Shown here piece by piece: positions 6,238-27,877 of a DNA stretch of 42,495 nt. The stretch comes from Candidatus Omnitrophota bacterium (GTDB lineage Bacteria; Omnitrophota; Gorgyraeia; B26-G9), in NCBI GenBank assembly GCA_016213925.1, contig JACQZH010000043.1:1-42495 (forward strand), given 5' to 3'. Position 1 is the first letter of the stretch. Each line of letters opens with the position of its first letter. A program made the position numbers and the translations under genes. The notes under the pieces are model-generated. The model saw only the letters and a list, made by a program, of their open reading frames with translations. It was not told the DNA's origin and searched no databases.

Positions 6238-6266
6238 TTGACAATGTATTTTTAGAGTGCCATACT
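6238..6266 (+). promoter_or_regulatory. putative cassette promoter Pc
   Basis: TTGACA (6238-6243) - 17 nt - CATACT (6261-6266), directed into the array, just upstream of the attI crossover. Confidence 0.55.
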
Positions 6267-6305
6267 AAGAATTAAACATATACTATGTATATTAATTGTT
6301 ATGAG
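6244..6305 (+). other. putative attI, crossover at G6298^TT
   Basis: GTTATGAG (6298-6305) is the exact reverse complement of the R'' box of the first attC (CTCATAAC, 7141-7147 region). Confidence 0.75.
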
Positions 6306-6319
6306 AATAAAATAAAGAT

Positions 6320-7138
6320 ATGAAAAGAAAATTATTAAATCAAATACAATTGCTTATGATTGAGGGTAATAAATTTACATTTCAAAATTTTTGCTATCCA
6401 CATGCTCCAGAAGGTAAATATGGGGGTAAAGATACTCCAAGATGGCTTATTTGGAAAACAAGAAGTTTTAACTTAATTACTAAACTTTCTGCTTCTAATT
6501 CACCAGCCGTTACATTAGCAGAAGAAGCAATGGAGATACACACTGAAGGATTTTATCCAAACAACTTTGAACGCCAAAAAGAAACAATGCTTGAGGCCTT
6601 GAAATTAACTGCAGAAAGTGTAAAGAATGATCCATTCGAAGAGCTTAAAAAGCCAACATCTAAAAAAACATTCACTACGCTTTCAAGTAAGATTTTTGTA
6701 GTACATGGACATGATCATTCTTTAAAAACAGAGGTTGAGAATTTTTTAATTAATATTGGTCTTGAACCAATTGTATTACATAAAAAACCAGATGAAGGAC
6801 AAACTATAATTGAGAAATTTGAAAAACATAGTGATGTTGGATATGCATTTATTTTACTTACCCCTGACGATATTGCTTACACCATAGATCAGGATGCAAT
6901 AGAAGATTCTAAACGAACGAAACAGAAGCAATCTAGGCCAAATGTGATTTTAGAGTTTGGTTATTTTGTTGGAAAACTGGGACGCAATCGTGTTTGTTGT
7001 ATTTATAAAGAAGGCGTTGCCTTACCAAGCGATCTCAGTGGACTTTTATATAAAAAAATAGAAAAATCAATTGAAGAAAAAGGATATGAAATAATAAAAG
7101 AACTTCAAGCAGCTGGATATAAACTACAAATTAAATAA
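6320..7138 (+). CDS. TIR-like nucleotide-binding domain protein (cassette 1)
   Basis: KIFVVHGHDHSLKTEVENFL...LEPIVLHKKPDEGQTIIEKFE...YAFILLTPDD...RPNVILEFGYFVGKLGRNRVCCIYKEGVALPSDLSGLLY: predicted nucleotide-binding TIR-like family pattern. Confidence 0.85.
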   Translation: MKRKLLNQIQLLMIEGNKFTFQNFCYPHAPEGKYGGKDTPRWLIWKTRSFNLITKLSASNSPAVTLAEEAMEIHTEGFYPNNFERQKETMLEALKLTAESVKNDPFEELKKPTSKKTFTTLSSKIFVVHGHDHSLKTEVENFLINIGLEPIVLHKKPDEGQTIIEKFEKHSDVGYAFILLTPDDIAYTIDQDAIEDSKRTKQKQSRPNVILEFGYFVGKLGRNRVCCIYKEGVALPSDLSGLLYKKIEKSIEEKGYEIIKELQAAGYKLQIK

Positions 7139-7140
7139 AC

Positions 7141-7222
7141 TCATAACAATTCGCTCCAGGCAATCGGAACCCGCCCCGAAAAAGCCGGGTCGGTCTCCTC
7201 TGCCTGAGCTCAAGCGTTATGT
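7141..7222 (+). other. attC site 1
   Basis: CTCATAACAATTCGCTCCAGGCAATCGGAACC...CTCTGCCTGAGCTCAAGCGTTATGTG. Confidence 0.93.
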
Positions 7223-7245
7223 GAGAAATAATAATAAAATTAAAC

Positions 7246-8775
7246 ATGAAAAATATTTTAAATTATACTCATGTAGAAGCAAAACAATACTTCTTAAAAG
7301 AAGAAAGTTATTTTAATTTTGATCTTCCTCCGTATTTCAAGTTTCAAAATCTTATTACCAAACTATCTGAGAAACTGGACAATAAATTGCTTTCGGATTT
7401 CTATAACACATACAAAAATGCAGGTAAAAAAAATTCTAAAGCAACTTATCCGAGTGAATTTGAAAATGTTAACTATAAACTGCTTAACAATAAAGATGGT
7501 CGGTTTGCATGGCGTCCATTTCAGCTTATACATCCAGCTATATATGTTTCACTTGTTCATCGGATAACAGAAAAACAAAATTGGGAGTTTATAGTTAAAA
7601 GGTTTAAGTCTTTTAGCAAGGATCCGAGAATATCTTGTTTTAGTATTCCTCTGGAATCAGATAGTAAAATATCGGATAAAGCAAAATCTGTATTGAATTG
7701 GTGGCAATCCATCGAACAAAAATCTATAGGTTTGGCATTAGAGTACGAATATATTTTACACACAGATATTGCAGATTGTTATGGCTCTCTTTATACTCAT
7801 ACAATCCCTTGGGCACTACATTCTAAAAAAACAGCTAAAAAAGAAAAAGATAATAAGCTTTTAATTGGCAATGTGATTGATTGGCACCTTCAAGATATGT
7901 CCTATGGACAAACAAATGGTATCCCCCAAGGTAGTACTTTAATGGATTTTGTTGCTGAAATGGTTTTAGGGTATGCTGATCTTGAATTATCAGAAAGAAT
8001 TAGGAGATTAAAATTAGCTGATTTTCAAATACTTAGGTATCGGGATGACTATCGAATATTAGCGAATAACCCGCAAGATGCCGAACTTATAGTAAAACAT
8101 ATTACGGAAATCATGATAGAACTTGGAATGCAGCTGAGCGCAAAAAAAACATTACTTTCCAATGATGTAGTGCAGGATTCAATTAAGCCAGACAAGCTGT
8201 TTTGGATTTATAGTAAAAAAGAAACTGGTAATTTACAAAAAGACTTATTACTAATACACAATCTTTCCAAGAAACATCCAAACTCAGGCAGTTTAACTAG
8301 ATCTCTGCATGAATTTTTTTATCGAATCGAACCCATTAAAAAAACAAACCAAAACATTACTGTTCTTATAAGTATAATCATTGATATTACCTACAAAAAT
8401 CCACGGACATATCCCATTTCAGCTGCAATACTTAGTAAATTTATAACATTGATTAGTTCAAAAAAGGCACAAAACAGGATATTAGGTTTAATATTAAGGC
8501 GATTTGAAAAAATTCCGAATACTGGATACTTGCAGATATGGCTTCAACGAATTCTTTTAAAGACAAACCCTAATTACAGTTTTAATGAAGATCTCTGTAA
8601 GAAAGTAATTGATTCAAATATTTCTATATGGAATTCTGATTGGCTTAAGGATTCTCTGAAAAACATTATAAACTCTAATCCAGTTGTTGATAAAAAAGTT
8701 ATCCAAAAAATACGAGCAATAATTGATGCTAAAGAAGTAGAACTTTTTGAATCAAAAACAATCTATACATATTGA
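7246..8775 (+). CDS. reverse transcriptase, candidate defence-associated type (cassette 2)
   Basis: LHTDIADCYGSLYTHTIPWAL ... GQTNGIPQGSTLMDFVAEMVLGYADLEL ... ILRYRDDYRILANN (YxDD-type RYRDDY) ... LGMQLSAKKTLLS; long alpha-helical C-terminal region. Confidence 0.88.
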   Translation: MKNILNYTHVEAKQYFLKEESYFNFDLPPYFKFQNLITKLSEKLDNKLLSDFYNTYKNAGKKNSKATYPSEFENVNYKLLNNKDGRFAWRPFQLIHPAIYVSLVHRITEKQNWEFIVKRFKSFSKDPRISCFSIPLESDSKISDKAKSVLNWWQSIEQKSIGLALEYEYILHTDIADCYGSLYTHTIPWALHSKKTAKKEKDNKLLIGNVIDWHLQDMSYGQTNGIPQGSTLMDFVAEMVLGYADLELSERIRRLKLADFQILRYRDDYRILANNPQDAELIVKHITEIMIELGMQLSAKKTLLSNDVVQDSIKPDKLFWIYSKKETGNLQKDLLLIHNLSKKHPNSGSLTRSLHEFFYRIEPIKKTNQNITVLISIIIDITYKNPRTYPISAAILSKFITLISSKKAQNRILGLILRRFEKIPNTGYLQIWLQRILLKTNPNYSFNEDLCKKVIDSNISIWNSDWLKDSLKNIINSNPVVDKKVIQKIRAIIDAKEVELFESKTIYTY

Positions 8776-8814
8776 TTAAATAAACAAACAGAACTGTAAA
8801 TTGAAATATAAAAA

Positions 8815-8898
8815 CACATAACAATTCGCTCCAGGGCAATCGGAACCCGCCCCGAAAAAGCCGGGTCGGTCTCCTCTGCCTGAGCTCAAGCGTTAGCC
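8815..8898 (+). other. attC site 2
   Basis: CACATAACAATTCGCTCCAGGGCAATCGG...CTGCCTGAGCTCAAGCGTTAGCC; differs from attC 1 by one inserted G in the central part. Confidence 0.93.
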
Positions 8899-8899
8899 T

Positions 8900-9379
8900 A
8901 TGATAAAAGAAGGATATAATATGCTACAAATATTATTAGGAGCAGGAGTTTTATCTGCGCTTATTGCAGGGCTTATTTCGTTCCGACTGCAAAACAATTT
9001 CTTTAAAGAGCAAACAAAATGTTTGCAAGAAAAAGAAGAACAAGATAATTTTAAAAAAGCTGAATTTATAAAAAAAGCTTTTCTGCATGAATCAAACTAT
9101 AATATTTTATTAGCCGAAAAAGCTAATGCTATGCAGCAAAGAATAGAGCAATATTTTGACACTCAATGTTACTCATTATTTAAAGAGAACATTGCCTTAT
9201 TAGGTGATGAGTTAGCAGAAAGTATTAACAATCTCTATATTGAATTATTTAGCGCCAATTCTCAAATTAAAAAATTAAATTACACCCAAGTAAATTATTT
9301 AAGCATAAAACCAGTATACGAAAACCAAAAGGAAAAGCTTGAAAAATTTGTTACTTTTTTAAAAACTAAATTAAAATAA
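8900..9379 (+). CDS. single-TM, coiled-coil-like hypothetical protein (cassette 3)
   Basis: LQILLGAGVLSALIAGLISF TM then charged helix; attC on both sides. Confidence 0.55.
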   Translation: MIKEGYNMLQILLGAGVLSALIAGLISFRLQNNFFKEQTKCLQEKEEQDNFKKAEFIKKAFLHESNYNILLAEKANAMQQRIEQYFDTQCYSLFKENIALLGDELAESINNLYIELFSANSQIKKLNYTQVNYLSIKPVYENQKEKLEKFVTFLKTKLK

Positions 9380-9384
9380 AAAAA

Positions 9385-9459
9385 GCTAACATCGCTTCAG
9401 GTAATCGGAACCCGCGCTCTATCGGGCTCGGCCTCCTTTACCTAAGCTTAAATGTTAGC
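9385..9459 (+). other. attC site 3
   Basis: GCTAACATCGCTTCAGGTAATCGGAACCCGCGCTCTATCGGGCTCGGCCTCCTTTACCTAAGCTTAAATGTTAGC. Confidence 0.92.
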
Positions 9460-10201: not shown

Positions 10202-10263
10202 GTCTAACAAATCACTGCACCTGATTTTGCCTGCGGCAAAACAGGTGAGTTCAAATGTTCGAT
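10202..10263 (+). other. attC site 4 (short, R' = GTTCGAT)
   Basis: TCTAACAAATCACTGCACCTGATTTTGCCTGCGGCAAAACAGGTGAGTTCAAATGTTCGAT; strong CACCTG-TTTTGCC/GGCAAAA-CAGGTG stem. Confidence 0.8.
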
Positions 10264-11094
10264 CAAGAAATAATAAAAAAAATGATAAAGCTTATTGATC
10301 TGATAAGTTTAGCTTGTATAACGATGGGAAAATTCAAAATCCATTGTGCTACGGGGTCAAATCCCGCTCCACTTGAGGCGTTTTATGACGACAAATTTAA
10401 AAAGTGGCAAGAATATCAAAATAACCGCAACTTCAAATGCGACCATATCATATCCTTGATCCACCTTGGCGGTTCTGATTGGCTCTTTGCTGGGATTTAC
10501 AAAGTCAACGGTATTCGGCCAAAATCAAACAATGAAAAATCATGGTTCGAGTATTCGACATCCGAACTCCCCGGTTTAGATCATCTCACCGGACGTGCCA
10601 TAATAGTATTCAACAAGAATTTTAGAGCCTCTTATCTGATAGGTGACCGATATGCTTCCCTATTGTTGGTAAAAGAGATCAAACCGGAACGGCAGTCAAT
10701 CGGGGACTTTCCAGGGTACAACAAAGTCTGTTTGCCGCTTCGAGGACTCAAGACAGTTGTCCGTCAGCAACTTCAAAGCTGGAAAACGGCATTGAGCAAC
10801 ATCGCTGGTGTTTATCTAATCTCTGATACAATGACCGGAAAACAATACGTTGGTAGCGCATACGGCGACATTGGAATCTGGCAAAGGTGGTGTGCCTATG
10901 CTACCACCGGCCACGGAGGCAACAAGGAGCTAAGAGATTTACTGAGAGAAAAAGGCGATGATTACGCGCTTAATTTTCTGTTTACAATTCTTGAGGTTAT
11001 TGACCTTAATGCAAGCAAAGAATATATCACCGCTCGCGAATGCCATTGGAAGGATGCTTTACTGACAAGGCAATATGGATATAACAGCAACTAA
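10255..11094 (+). CDS. GIY-YIG nuclease-domain protein (cassette 5)
   Basis: GVYLISDTMTGKQYVGSAYGDIGIWQRWCAYATTGHGGNKELRDLL...ALNFLFTILEV...ECHWKDALLTRQYGYNSN. Confidence 0.88.
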   Translation: MFDQEIIKKMIKLIDLISLACITMGKFKIHCATGSNPAPLEAFYDDKFKKWQEYQNNRNFKCDHIISLIHLGGSDWLFAGIYKVNGIRPKSNNEKSWFEYSTSELPGLDHLTGRAIIVFNKNFRASYLIGDRYASLLLVKEIKPERQSIGDFPGYNKVCLPLRGLKTVVRQQLQSWKTALSNIAGVYLISDTMTGKQYVGSAYGDIGIWQRWCAYATTGHGGNKELRDLLREKGDDYALNFLFTILEVIDLNASKEYITARECHWKDALLTRQYGYNSN

Positions 11095-11194: not shown

Positions 11195-12133
11195 ATGACT
11201 AAAAAAAATGTTTTAATATTTTGTGTTTTGTTTTTATTATTCTGCATTACAGCACAGGCTGGAACATTTACCATCCCTGACTGGTTGATAAACTCATGTG
11301 TTTTTATTATGCGTGGTGAAGAAGTTAACGGGACAGGTTTTCTTATTTGGATTAAAGAATATGATTCCAACTTTTGTTATCTTGTTACAGCAAAACATGT
11401 GGCTCAATCTGTTTTGAGTAATACTCAAGACCCTTTAAAAATACGTTTTAATCTAAAGGAAGGTAATAATGCAAAAATCTTTGATTTTCCAACCTTCAAC
11501 TTTAAAGGAAAAAGGTGGATAGAACATGAAAATCCCACAATAGATATTGCGGTCATTCCACTTACTATCTTTGACAAAGTGTCGAAACTTGAAGTAGGAG
11601 TTCGTATAATAGAAAGCCCCGAAGACGAATTTTTAGCGACAACTCAATGGATTAACAAATACAAGGTAGCTCCTGGAGACCAGGCATTTAGCCTTGGTCT
11701 TGTTCCGTATCTTTATGCAAAAGATCAAAAGAATCTTGTCTTATCAAGGTTTGGCACTATTTCTCTTCTCCTTGACCAGGAAATCAACTTGCCTGGTGGT
11801 AAACAAAAAGCATATTTTCTTGACTGTCAAGCTTTTCCAGGCAATAGTGGAGGGCCCGCATTTGTTCTTATTGAGCGTTCAGAAGAAGGCCCGCTTCTTT
11901 CTGGCTGGCGCTTCGGATTATTAGGTGTCGTTGCGGAATTTGTACCAAGCGCTCTTCGAACTAATATAGTTGATATTCAAGATACACAACACCAGACAAC
12001 AATTCAATTAATTGAAAATACAGGCATCAGCAAGATTATACCTGTTGATTACCTTGTTGATATTTTATTCTCTGATAATCAGAAAGAATTTCGCAAGAAA
12101 ATTATTGCACAAAAAAAAGCAGAAATTCATTAA
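11195..12133 (+). CDS. secreted trypsin-like serine protease (cassette 6)
   Basis: Signal peptide; GTGFLIWIKEYDSNFCYLVTAKHVA, DIAVIPL, FPGNSGGPAFV (His/Asp/Ser triad motifs). Confidence 0.85.
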   Translation: MTKKNVLIFCVLFLLFCITAQAGTFTIPDWLINSCVFIMRGEEVNGTGFLIWIKEYDSNFCYLVTAKHVAQSVLSNTQDPLKIRFNLKEGNNAKIFDFPTFNFKGKRWIEHENPTIDIAVIPLTIFDKVSKLEVGVRIIESPEDEFLATTQWINKYKVAPGDQAFSLGLVPYLYAKDQKNLVLSRFGTISLLLDQEINLPGGKQKAYFLDCQAFPGNSGGPAFVLIERSEEGPLLSGWRFGLLGVVAEFVPSALRTNIVDIQDTQHQTTIQLIENTGISKIIPVDYLVDILFSDNQKEFRKKIIAQKKAEIH

Positions 12134-12350: not shown

Positions 12351-12424
12351 CTATAACAAAGCAATCCAGGTAATTTTATTACGCGGCAAGCCGCTCCATA
12401 AAATACCTGATTTTTGTGTTATCT
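12351..12424 (+). other. attC site 6
   Basis: CTATAACAAAGCAATCCAGGTAATTTTATTACGCGGCAAGCCGCTCCATAAAATACCTGATTTTTGTGTTATCT; R'' complements GTTATAG at 11178. Confidence 0.93.
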
Positions 12425-12457
12425 GAAAATAATAAAACCATTATTAGGAGGTTACAA

Positions 12458-14065
12458 ATGGGATCCTTATACTTGAATAGATTATCACAAAAAGAAAGAG
12501 AAGCTTTAATCGAAAAATTATTCCAATCTCAAAAAGAAATTTGCTTCATTTGCGAAAAAACAATTGACCTTAAACTTCACAAAGATGCTCTTGATATTGA
12601 CCATATTGTTCCTACAAAATTAAACGGGAAGGATGACCCCGTTAATTTTGCGTTAACACATTCAAGTTGTAACAGATCAAAACAAGCGTCCGACCTTAAT
12701 ATAGCAAGGATACTTAATCACTTTGATGAGCTTAAAAATAATATTTCCTCTGAAAACCGCGGTCCCAATTTAGACGATATTTTGAAATCAAAGAGCGGCT
12801 CACAATACGAAATAATATTTAACAAACAAAATGGGAAGATTAAATATTCTCTCCCCGAAATTGGCAATAATCAAATCTTTGATTTGCCTGTTTATATAGA
12901 TGCACTCAGTGGGTTTGAATACTTTTTTACAAATCTTCCAATAGAGTATCTTTATCATGATGACAAAATTAATCCGAGGTCAATTGGAGAGAACATATCT
13001 AAGTTAATTCACGAGTTTTATTTAAAAAGGCCACAATTACACATTTCTCTGGCTTGGATCGACCTTAACTGTCCGAAAACCAAAGTAAAAGTTTTTGACG
13101 GGCAACATAAAGCGTCGGCTCAAATATTGCTCGGAGTAAAACAATTGCCAGTTAGAATTTTTATTAATCCCAATCCTGATATTTTATTAACGACCAATAC
13201 AAACGCTGGAACGACTTTAAGACAGGTAGCATTTGATAAATCTGTTCAACGTCACTTAGGTAGCGCTTTGTATCTTGATAGAATTGACAGATATAAAACT
13301 GACTGCAATTTGTCTAATGATAATTATAACTTTTCAGAAAGGGATTTATTGAAGTACTTTAAAGGTGAGTCAAGAGAAATGAAACGATATATTTTGGATG
13401 CAGTTAGAGATTCAATTACCCACAATCCCGAAAACAAATTAAAAGATTATATTGATTTTGGCGGGAGAGGTAAAGATAGACCCCTATCATACAGCACCAT
13501 AGAGAAAACATTTTACTCTTTCTTTATCTTTCAGGATGTTTTAGAAACACCTATCAATTACCGGTTAGAAGAAGGTGGAAATCCGAGAGAATTAGAGAAA
13601 GAACAAATCCTTGAGTTAATGAACTTAATTGCAGAAGAAATATTTATTGGTAAATTTGACGGCGATATTGGCACAAGTCAGATTGAAAGTAAGATTCAAA
13701 AAGGAGAGAACTTGCCGCTACCTCATATACGGGCGTTTAGAATGAGCAAAGAAGAAATTCTCTACAACTGGCTCAGATATATTGAACAAATAATAAAAAA
13801 CTATTTCATTATGCAGGGCAAACCAATTCAAGAAAGCAAATTATTCCAATATAAATTTCCAGAGCCTTTATGGGAGAGGATCAAAATATTCATAAAAAAT
13901 ATTGCTAATCTGCCAGTCTGGATAAATAAAGAACTATCCTCAACTGTTTTCGGTGGTAAACAGGTTAATGATTATTGGCAAACAATTTTTGAAACGGGAA
14001 AATCATCGCAAGGATTACAAGTATTAGCGGAACCAATTGATTTAATGAAAATGATTAAAGATTAA
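12458..14065 (+). CDS. HNH endonuclease + DGQHR-like (DndB/ParB-like) protein (cassette 7)
   Basis: CFICEKTIDLKLHKDALDIDHIVPTKLNGKDDPVNFALTHSSCNRSKQ (HNH) followed by TKVKVFDGQHKASAQILLGVKQLPVRIFINPNPD; AGGAGG upstream of ATG 12458. Confidence 0.82.
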   Translation: MGSLYLNRLSQKEREALIEKLFQSQKEICFICEKTIDLKLHKDALDIDHIVPTKLNGKDDPVNFALTHSSCNRSKQASDLNIARILNHFDELKNNISSENRGPNLDDILKSKSGSQYEIIFNKQNGKIKYSLPEIGNNQIFDLPVYIDALSGFEYFFTNLPIEYLYHDDKINPRSIGENISKLIHEFYLKRPQLHISLAWIDLNCPKTKVKVFDGQHKASAQILLGVKQLPVRIFINPNPDILLTTNTNAGTTLRQVAFDKSVQRHLGSALYLDRIDRYKTDCNLSNDNYNFSERDLLKYFKGESREMKRYILDAVRDSITHNPENKLKDYIDFGGRGKDRPLSYSTIEKTFYSFFIFQDVLETPINYRLEEGGNPRELEKEQILELMNLIAEEIFIGKFDGDIGTSQIESKIQKGENLPLPHIRAFRMSKEEILYNWLRYIEQIIKNYFIMQGKPIQESKLFQYKFPEPLWERIKIFIKNIANLPVWINKELSSTVFGGKQVNDYWQTIFETGKSSQGLQVLAEPIDLMKMIKD

Positions 14066-17616: not shown

Positions 17617-17925
17617 ATGATTAAAGATAAAAAGGAAATTTTAAATCTCATAAAAAATAACCAAAATGACATTGTGTCTTTCGGCGTAAAACAACTTGGT
17701 CTTTTTGGCTCGTTCGTTAAGGGAAAACAAAACCCTGAAAGCGATATTGATTTACTTGTTGAATTCTACCCTGATAAAAAAAACTTTGATAATTTCATTC
17801 ACCTTTCCTTTTTACTTGAAACATTATTAAAACATCGCATAGAATTAGTAACTTCCGAATCATTAAGCCCTTATATTAAACCTAATATATTACGAGAGGT
17901 CGAATATGTCATTTCCCGGGCATGA
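17617..17925 (+). CDS. MNT-type nucleotidyltransferase antitoxin
   Basis: LGLFGSFVKGKQNPESDIDLLVEF. Confidence 0.88.
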   Translation: MIKDKKEILNLIKNNQNDIVSFGVKQLGLFGSFVKGKQNPESDIDLLVEFYPDKKNFDNFIHLSFLLETLLKHRIELVTSESLSPYIKPNILREVEYVISRA

Positions 17926-18238
17926 ATATCTTCTCCATATATTGGATGAAACAAAATATATTTTAAGTCAAACAAAAGTATTGACTAAAGAAGATTTTAT
18001 GCAGAACGAAACACTCCAAAGAGCGTTTGTCCGTAGTATAGAAATTATCGGAGAGGCTACAAAAAATACCCCTGACAATTTAAAACAAAAACATCCTTAT
18101 ATAGAATGGCGAGCTATGGCTGGCATGCGGGATATATTAATACATGATTACTTCGGCATAGATTATGATATTGTATTTTCAGATTCTTGGTGCATTATGT
18201 TTTTTTGTTTTAATGGCAATTTGCTGGGGCATACTTAG
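17906..18238 (+). CDS. HEPN (DUF86/HepT-like) toxin, C-terminus apparently altered
   Basis: RAFVRSIEIIGEATKNTPDNLK...WRAMAGMRDILIHDYFGIDYDIV (RDxxxH), then atypical FSDSWCIMFFCFNG tail. Confidence 0.8.
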   Translation: MSFPGHEYLLHILDETKYILSQTKVLTKEDFMQNETLQRAFVRSIEIIGEATKNTPDNLKQKHPYIEWRAMAGMRDILIHDYFGIDYDIVFSDSWCIMFFCFNGNLLGHT

Positions 18239-19954: not shown

Positions 19955-20257
19955 ATGCTGGATATAAAACCTTATGAGGAACAAATAAAAAAAATTTGCA
20001 TTGAATTACAACTTAAACGATTGGATTTGTTCGGCTCTGCAACAACTGAAAATTTTGGGTCAAATAGTGATGTTGATATAATAGTTGAATTCAAGAAGGA
20101 TGTTGATCTCAACCGATTTGACAGCTATTTTCTATTAAAAACCCATTTGCAAAACATTTTTCATCGTCCAATTGATATAATAATTGATGGAACAATTAAA
20201 AACCCTTATCTCAAAGAAAATATTTCCCAGACAAGGAAGAATATATATGCCTCATGA
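19955..20257 (+). CDS. MNT-type nucleotidyltransferase antitoxin
   Basis: LDLFGSATTENFGSNSDVDIIVEF. Confidence 0.9.
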   Translation: MLDIKPYEEQIKKICIELQLKRLDLFGSATTENFGSNSDVDIIVEFKKDVDLNRFDSYFLLKTHLQNIFHRPIDIIIDGTIKNPYLKENISQTRKNIYAS

Positions 20258-20585
20258 AATCAAGAAATATCTTTTTGATATTCAGCAAGCTATTGAACAA
20301 ATAGAAACATTCCTCAAGGATAAAACCTATGAACACTTTATCGTTGAATCCATCCTGCAATCTGCAGTAGAAAGGCAATTTGAAATAATTGGAGAAGCCT
20401 TATATAGAATCAGGAAAATTGATGAAACTTATTTATCTAAAATTGCTGATGCGCACAAAATAATTGGCTTTAGAAACGTAATTAGCCATGGCTATGATAT
20501 TATTGATTCTAATATAATTTGGGACGCCGTAAAATTAAACCTGCCAAAACTAAAAAATGAAATTAATAATTTAATGAGAATCTAA
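20247..20585 (+). CDS. HEPN (DUF86/HepT-like) toxin
   Basis: MPHEIKKYLFDIQQAIEQIETFL...ERQFEIIGEALYRI...FRNVISHGYDIIDSNIIWDAVKLNLPKL (RNxxxH). Confidence 0.9.
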   Translation: MPHEIKKYLFDIQQAIEQIETFLKDKTYEHFIVESILQSAVERQFEIIGEALYRIRKIDETYLSKIADAHKIIGFRNVISHGYDIIDSNIIWDAVKLNLPKLKNEINNLMRI

Positions 20586-26791: not shown

Positions 26792-27877
26792 ATGAAACAA
26801 GACATTAGAAAAATCAAATTCGAAGATATTGGTTTTAGTGATTTTTTTGTTAATCATTATAAGCAAGCCACAGGCAAAGCCCTTACTCCTGCCCGAATTG
26901 TTGCAGAGCATAAGGAATTGTATATTTTAAGAAATGAAACAACCGAATTATCAGCGAAAATAACCGGCAAAATGATGTTTACATCTTCATCTCGAGAAAA
27001 TTATCCGGCAGTTGGAGATTGGGTCTTAATAACCGTCCTAGATGAAAAGCAAGCCATAATACATAAAATACTCCCCAGAAAAACAGTACTGACAAGAAAA
27101 TCTGTAAGCAATTCAGACAAACAGCTGATTGCTTCAAACATAGATGTTGCTTTAATCATTCAATCACCGGATAGAGATTATAATTTAAATAGGTTTGAAA
27201 GATATATCATACTCGCAGAATCAGAAAACATAAAGCCAATAATAGTCCTGAATAAAACTGATTTGCTATCAAAGAACGAATTAGATATAAAGATAACAGA
27301 GATAGAAAAGAGGTTCGAAAATATTGAAGTTTACGCAACAAGCATTATCACTGGCAAAGGTATCACTGATCTAAAAAATAGCATACAAAAAGGGTCAACC
27401 TATTGTTTTCTGGGTTCTTCCGGCGTAGGGAAATCATCCATTATAAATATTATTTTAGGTAACGCCCTGATTCAAACTGCTGAAATAAGCTCCTACTCAG
27501 ATAGAGGTAAGCATATTACTACGCATAGAGAGCTATTCATATTAGATAATGGCGGGATTTTAATTGACAATCCAGGAATGCGTGAAATTGGAGTATTGGA
27601 CTCAGAACCCGGGATAAGAAGTGTTTTCTCTGAAATTTTTGAATTATCAAAAGAGTGCAAATTTGCAGATTGCCGGCATATTAACGAACCGGGATGTGCT
27701 GTTCAAAACGCCATATCTTCAGGCCATCTAGACGCAAGTAAATTTGAAAACTGTATCAAGATTGTAAAAGAAAATGCGTATAATACTATGAATAAACTTG
27801 AAAAAAGAGAAAAAGATCGCAAATTCGGACAATTTATTAAAACAGCAAAAAAACAAATAAAAAAATACAAATTATAA
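26792..27877 (+). CDS. RsgA-like circularly permuted GTPase (cassette-borne)
   Basis: VLNKTDLL...CFLGSSGVGKSSIINIILG...DNPGMREIGV...CKFADCRHINEPGCAV. Confidence 0.92.
   Translation: MKQDIRKIKFEDIGFSDFFVNHYKQATGKALTPARIVAEHKELYILRNETTELSAKITGKMMFTSSSRENYPAVGDWVLITVLDEKQAIIHKILPRKTVLTRKSVSNSDKQLIASNIDVALIIQSPDRDYNLNRFERYIILAESENIKPIIVLNKTDLLSKNELDIKITEIEKRFENIEVYATSIITGKGITDLKNSIQKGSTYCFLGSSGVGKSSIINIILGNALIQTAEISSYSDRGKHITTHRELFILDNGGILIDNPGMREIGVLDSEPGIRSVFSEIFELSKECKFADCRHINEPGCAVQNAISSGHLDASKFENCIKIVKENAYNTMNKLEKREKDRKFGQFIKTAKKQIKKYKL

Follow-up and report, generated by a model that had tools for sequence, protein, structure and literature searches.

Integrons are established stores of small defence genes (Darracq et al. 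2025 and Kieffer et al. 2025; review: PMC12409362). The integron defence cassettes described there are, like the two cassettes analysed here, small single-gene candidates located between attC sites, in the first positions near the cassette promoter Pc. Unlike them, the present cassettes belong to an uncultured lineage, and one is a 1.7-kb cassette carrying an Abi-P2 gene. Among the Abi-P2 reverse transcriptases (RTs), the closest described are those of E. coli (P2-EC30 ORF570 and P2-EC58 ORF544; solved structure 7r08), of which ORF570 of P2-EC30 was reported to protect against T5 (PMC9508834). These share with the RT of the second cassette both domains, the priming tyrosine, the YRDDY motif and the single-gene organisation, but are only 35–36% identical to it and reside in P2 prophages rather than in an integron cassette. 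The protein of the first cassette resembles PDC-S35, a candidate single-gene defence family of PADLOC, for which no paper using that name was found. The likeness is nearly full-length and includes the N-terminal region, and relatives occur on plasmids and prophages; however, the N-terminal domain is strongly divergent, and the closest full-length relative found (67% identical) is another integron cassette. Additionally, this protein shares its type of TIR domain and NADase pocket residues with Cap12 (TIR-STING, CBASS) and PycTIR (Pycsar) but, in contrast to these, neither a STING domain nor any other known domain for ligand binding was found in it, and its cassette holds no cyclase gene.

The reading that we consider highly probable is that positions 1 and 2 of the integron are occupied by two independent single-gene anti-phage cassettes, encoding a TIR NADase and a protein-primed, untemplated Abi-P2 polymerase, respectively, and transcribed from Pc. 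Both products, compact enough to be of cassette size, would then be abortive-infection proteins, each acting without the other. The two cassettes are a well-supported new example in a known niche and not a new kind of system. With them, anti-phage defence carried by integrons would reach into an uncultured lineage. They also illustrate clearly how the type of an attC can by itself point to recent capture, from relatives, of the cassettes adjoining attI.

The integron and the borders of its first two cassettes

The integron lies within the window (the whole stretch of 42,495 nucleotides that was analysed) and consists of an integrase gene on the minus strand, the attI region and a plus-strand array in which attC-type sites recur from approximately 7.1 to 28.6 kb (Table 1). 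Integrases are uncommon in the host lineage, with 16 of 368 genomes scoring above the cut-off. Residues 1–110 of IntI form an N-terminal extension of approximately 110 aa; full-length integrases of the phylum occupy open frames of approximately 400–475 aa, so the long form of the protein is usual here. The attI core TAYGTATATTAATTGTTA is common to the window and to the attI of a contig (C73) of genome G373, which represents another genus within the family of the host. A different layout was observed in genome G123 (L025, 7587–15065), where the integrase is located downstream of the cassettes, on the same strand as these, and its reading frame is split near the N-terminus.

Table 1. Positions in the window of the integrase, the attI region and the first two cassettes.
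Feature	Position	Strand	Details
Integron integrase IntI, 440 aa	4861..6183	-	TIGR02249 417 bits (cut-off 265), E=4e-125, aa 115-434
Candidate cassette promoter Pc, TTGACA-17-CATACT	6238..6266	+	Promoter scan and recurring -35 box
attI core and junction (ATACTATGTATATTAATTG^TT)	6280..6300	+	Recombination point 3' of G6298
Cassette 1 (recombination point to recombination point)	6299..7216	+	Start GTTATGAG complements R'' CTCATAAC (7140-7147)
TIR effector, PDC-S35 type, 272 aa	6320-7138	+	Helical domain aa 1-110, linker, TIR aa 124-248
attC1	7140..7224	+	R'' 7140-7147; R' from G7216 is part of the cassette 2 start
Cassette 2 (recombination point to recombination point)	7217..8892	+	Start GTTATGTG complements R'' CACATAAC (8815-8822)
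Abi-P2 reverse transcriptase, 509 aa	7246-8775	+	Priming Tyr30; catalytic D174, D267, D268
attC2	8815..8900	+	61 consecutive bases as in attC1

The stretch from 6320 to 8898 comprises two open reading frames (ORFs) together with attC1 and attC2. Each ORF lies between recombination points, is followed by its own attC and has IntI and attI upstream, which are the features of an integron gene cassette. The two attC sites were settled by means of their repeats and by direct folding, whereby bottom-strand hairpins were obtained; a pattern scan with a strict hairpin rule misses both. Integron cassettes integrate as circles, and the first bases and the R'' of one and the same cassette are therefore expected to be complementary. 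Each of the two cassettes indeed starts with the reverse complement of the R'' that closes it, as is also seen in cassette 3 (start GTTAGC, R'' GCTAAC at 9385–9390). With such self-closing ends, cassettes 1 and 2 represent two separate single-gene cassettes. Furthermore, the TIR relative of G123 (67% identical; different family, same class) is also located between attC sites and has the same ends, while DNA similarity between the two loci extends from the attI junction to just inside attC1. This similarity does not reach beyond the cassette borders, indicating that the cassette is the mobile unit.

The TIR protein of cassette 1

In keeping with the TIR-like C-terminal domain recognised in the initial annotation, the Pfam domain CAP12-PCTIR_TIR matches residues 124–248 of the cassette 1 protein (E=7e-36). 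The same annotation had regarded the N-terminal 110 or so residues as unrecognised; this no longer holds, as the PADLOC models of PDC-S35 cover the N-terminus, with a full-length match over aa 9–271 (profile positions 7–259 of 264, E=5e-70). The nearest structures, by sequence as well as by fold (9lmq, E=3e-6), are those of TIR-STING. In SfSTING the NADase pocket is composed of R78, N80 and E84 together with D110 from the partner subunit (PMC9402430). On alignment to 9lmq the counterparts of these four residues are R206, N208, E212 and D238, each of which is invariant in two sets of homologues. The protein is thus a member of PDC-S35 that appears to be of the NADase type, and hydrolysis of NAD+ is predicted from these residues. 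Activated TIR domains would pack against one another such that E212 and the D238 of a neighbour complete the NADase site, leading to depletion of NAD+.

It is conceivable, if improbable, that the protein is not an NADase and instead binds nucleotides, serves in signalling or acts on nucleotides other than NAD+. Its relatives are publicly annotated as 'nucleotide-binding protein', which is a common annotation, and TIR-like folds do occur in nucleotide hydrolases, a nucleoside deoxyribosyltransferase and a CMP hydrolase being among the weak viral matches returned by Foldseek. Against this stand the best fold match, which is to TIR-STING, and the presence and invariance in the family of all four published pocket residues of SfSTING, both of which favour the NADase assignment.

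The N-terminal part of the AlphaFold model is composed of helices (residues 2–17, 39–56, 62–72 and 80–102) and is followed, after approximately residue 103, by a low-confidence linker and then by the TIR fold. When modelled alone, this domain is again all helical (pLDDT 83.5), and comparison of the model with solved structures returned no match better than E=0.9. As no solved structure resembles it, the role assigned to the domain is a guess, namely that it may hold the protein inactive or sense infection. Proteins with a similar N-terminal pattern have little in common with the TIR protein beyond W45 and L91. On viral contigs, relatives carry the same TIR domain fused to many different N-termini, and such variety would be anticipated were the trigger determined by the N-terminus.

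Identity as a CBASS effector was considered and rejected, as Pfam detects no STING domain and the NCBIfam Cap12 model gives a score of 41 against a cut-off of 450. A search of the genome (90% complete) for a SMODS cyclase, which would be the CBASS partner, yielded no match.

The Abi-P2 reverse transcriptase of cassette 2

The second ORF likewise proved to be as initially described, namely an RT with the motif RYRDDY, which occupies residues 264–269. The Pfam domain RVT_1 is detected (E=1.7e-12), while among RT class profiles AbiP2 matches residues 1–504 with 674 bits (E=2.4e-203) and the next class, RT_UG14, scores 175 bits. Membership of both genes in defence families, as had been proposed, is accordingly borne out by the profiles PDC-S35 and CAP12-PCTIR_TIR for the first and AbiP2 for the second. 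The solved Abi-P2 of E. coli (7r08) aligns with residues 1 to 470 (E=2e-94), and identity to P2-EC30 ORF570 amounts to 36% over 98%. Judged by profile and alignment, the cassette 2 product is a full-length Abi-P2 RT.

The active site (D174 and the YRDDY of Y265–D268) is invariant in 13 homologues. In Abi-P2, Tyr61, located between helices 2 and 3, is required to prime DNA synthesis (Figiel et al.). This residue (chain numbering of 7r08) aligns with Y30 of the RT, which is equally invariant in the 13 homologues. The initial annotation had additionally noted a long helical C-terminal extension. This part corresponds to the helical domain that is typical of Abi polymerases (PMC9508834); by sequence only, such a domain is found after the palm, where it replaces the thumb (7r08 aligned to residue 470, AbiP2 to residue 504). 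The enzyme would be expected to form an RT-like oligomer, presumably a trimer as is characteristic of Abi-P2 RTs, and, primed on its own Tyr30, produces untemplated single-stranded DNA, its activity halting the infected cell before phage is released.

Only 29 nt precede the gene within its cassette and 39 nt follow it, so that an ncRNA such as those of DRT2, DRT9 or retrons could hardly be accommodated, which agrees with template-free synthesis. By profile score the RT belongs to the Abi/DRT group and not to the retron, group II or DGR classes, so that none of the three placements named in the initial annotation as counting against its reading was found. Identity as a retron, group II, DGR or ncRNA-dependent DRT enzyme was hence rejected in view of the large lead of AbiP2, the low score of the group II maturase model (49.6 bits, where the cut-off is 300) and the scant non-coding space.

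A search of viral contigs for close relatives of the RT returned none. In four unrelated genomes (L028, L032, L035 and L036) Abi-P2 immediately follows hsdS within a type I restriction-modification operon, and in two of these hsdR is also present downstream of it. Such embedding might be a sign of some connection of Abi-P2 with type I restriction.

Origin, expression and relationship of the two cassettes

The attC1 and attC2 sites are near-identical, with 61 identical bases, while the next closest sites of the array are only 71–72% identical to attC1. In G373 the attC1 type occurs at least five times at 91–97% identity, and sites of this type close the integrase-adjoining cassettes in both integrons of that genome (contigs C73 and C48). 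Furthermore, G373 carries an Abi-P2 that is 83% identical to the RT and lies downstream of an attC. Since the attC type is rare in the array, common in G373 and present there at the first cassettes, cassettes 1 and 2 look like late arrivals, apparently from the family's own cassette pool, and the suggestion in the initial annotation that they were recently acquired gains support. The dN/dS ratios of both ORFs (0.09–0.16) reflect purifying selection, which is strong between genera. Directly after the Abi-P2 gene of G373 a 219-aa ORF is present (L024, 14156–14815), for which neither Pfam nor PADLOC gave a match and which is not followed by a clear attC.

A candidate Pc upstream of attI would transcribe both cassettes of this chromosomal integron. 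A promoter scan of the attI region yielded matches no more numerous than in shuffled sequences, so the assignment relies on conservation of the -35 box: in both G373 integrons a TTGAC[A/T] box is likewise present, about as far from attI as here, in one instance as TTGACT-17-TATAAT. This recurrence lends some support to the earlier view of the two as the best-expressed cassettes. In large chromosomal integrons the majority of cassettes are considered silent or weakly expressed (PMC12409362) and, given also that the promoter assignment by itself carries little weight, it might be argued that the genes were captured and are kept as a dormant stock, with too little expression, or no suitable trigger, for defence in this host. 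We regard this as unlikely, because both genes are intact and hold the first two positions, the -35 box upstream of attI is conserved, and purifying selection between genera is strong.

The initial annotation had left room for the two genes acting together. A search of 384 genomes of the phylum (matches at E<=1e-10) gave a TIR match in 14 and an RT match in six, with both present in the genome of the window and together in none of the other 383; as approximately 0.2 co-occurrences are expected by chance, this one case is unremarkable. Moreover, none of the Abi-P2 loci of seven other species contains a TIR gene of the cassette 1 type, and the closest TIR relative, in G123, is a cassette without an adjoining RT. 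A joint TIR-RT system would be marked by unrelated genomes repeatedly containing both genes or having them side by side; no such pattern was seen in the 384 genomes and the seven further loci.

It is very improbable, in our estimation, that the cassettes form one two-component system in which the TIR N-terminal domain senses the RT or its DNA and NAD+ is then depleted. Their adjacency in positions 1 and 2 and their near-identical attC sites may point to joint capture, but a common cassette pool explains the shared attC equally well, because in G373 this attC is also found closing unrelated genes, and each of the two genes has a self-closing cassette to itself instead of sharing one with the other. 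Adjacency is the sole reason seen for joining them. Equally improbable is the specific version in which the two arrived by joint capture and cooperate, the helical N-terminal domain sensing a DNA-bearing Abi-P2 complex, or phage inhibitors of it, and provoking loss of NAD+; if true, the pair would be a modular RT-TIR system assembled by the integron. The proposed joint action is thus not sustained, each gene having close relatives that occur without the other, and two independent cassettes remain the preferred reading.

Several further cassettes of the array carry cargo of note. Cassette 5 (10255–11094) matches UzuA of the Uzume defence system (PADLOC E=1e-65) and brings the number of defence-type genes in the first five cassettes to three. 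Among the later cassettes that were scanned, PADLOC returned no match as strong as UzuA with the exception of two PDC-S09 genes. These are nucleotidyltransferases which, each with a small partner, form two mid-array pairs (17617–18238 and 19955–20585) that look like toxin-antitoxin modules. Additionally, a cassette at 11195–12133 encodes a trypsin-like protein that matches PDC-S45 modestly (E=2e-17), and one at 12416–14065 encodes an HNH protein of 549 aa in which a DGQH motif is present and which matches PtuB and the Cas9 HNH domain weakly. Finally, a gene for an RsgA-type ribosome GTPase (Pfam E=4e-50), an unusual housekeeping-like cargo, is located inside the array at 26792–27877.
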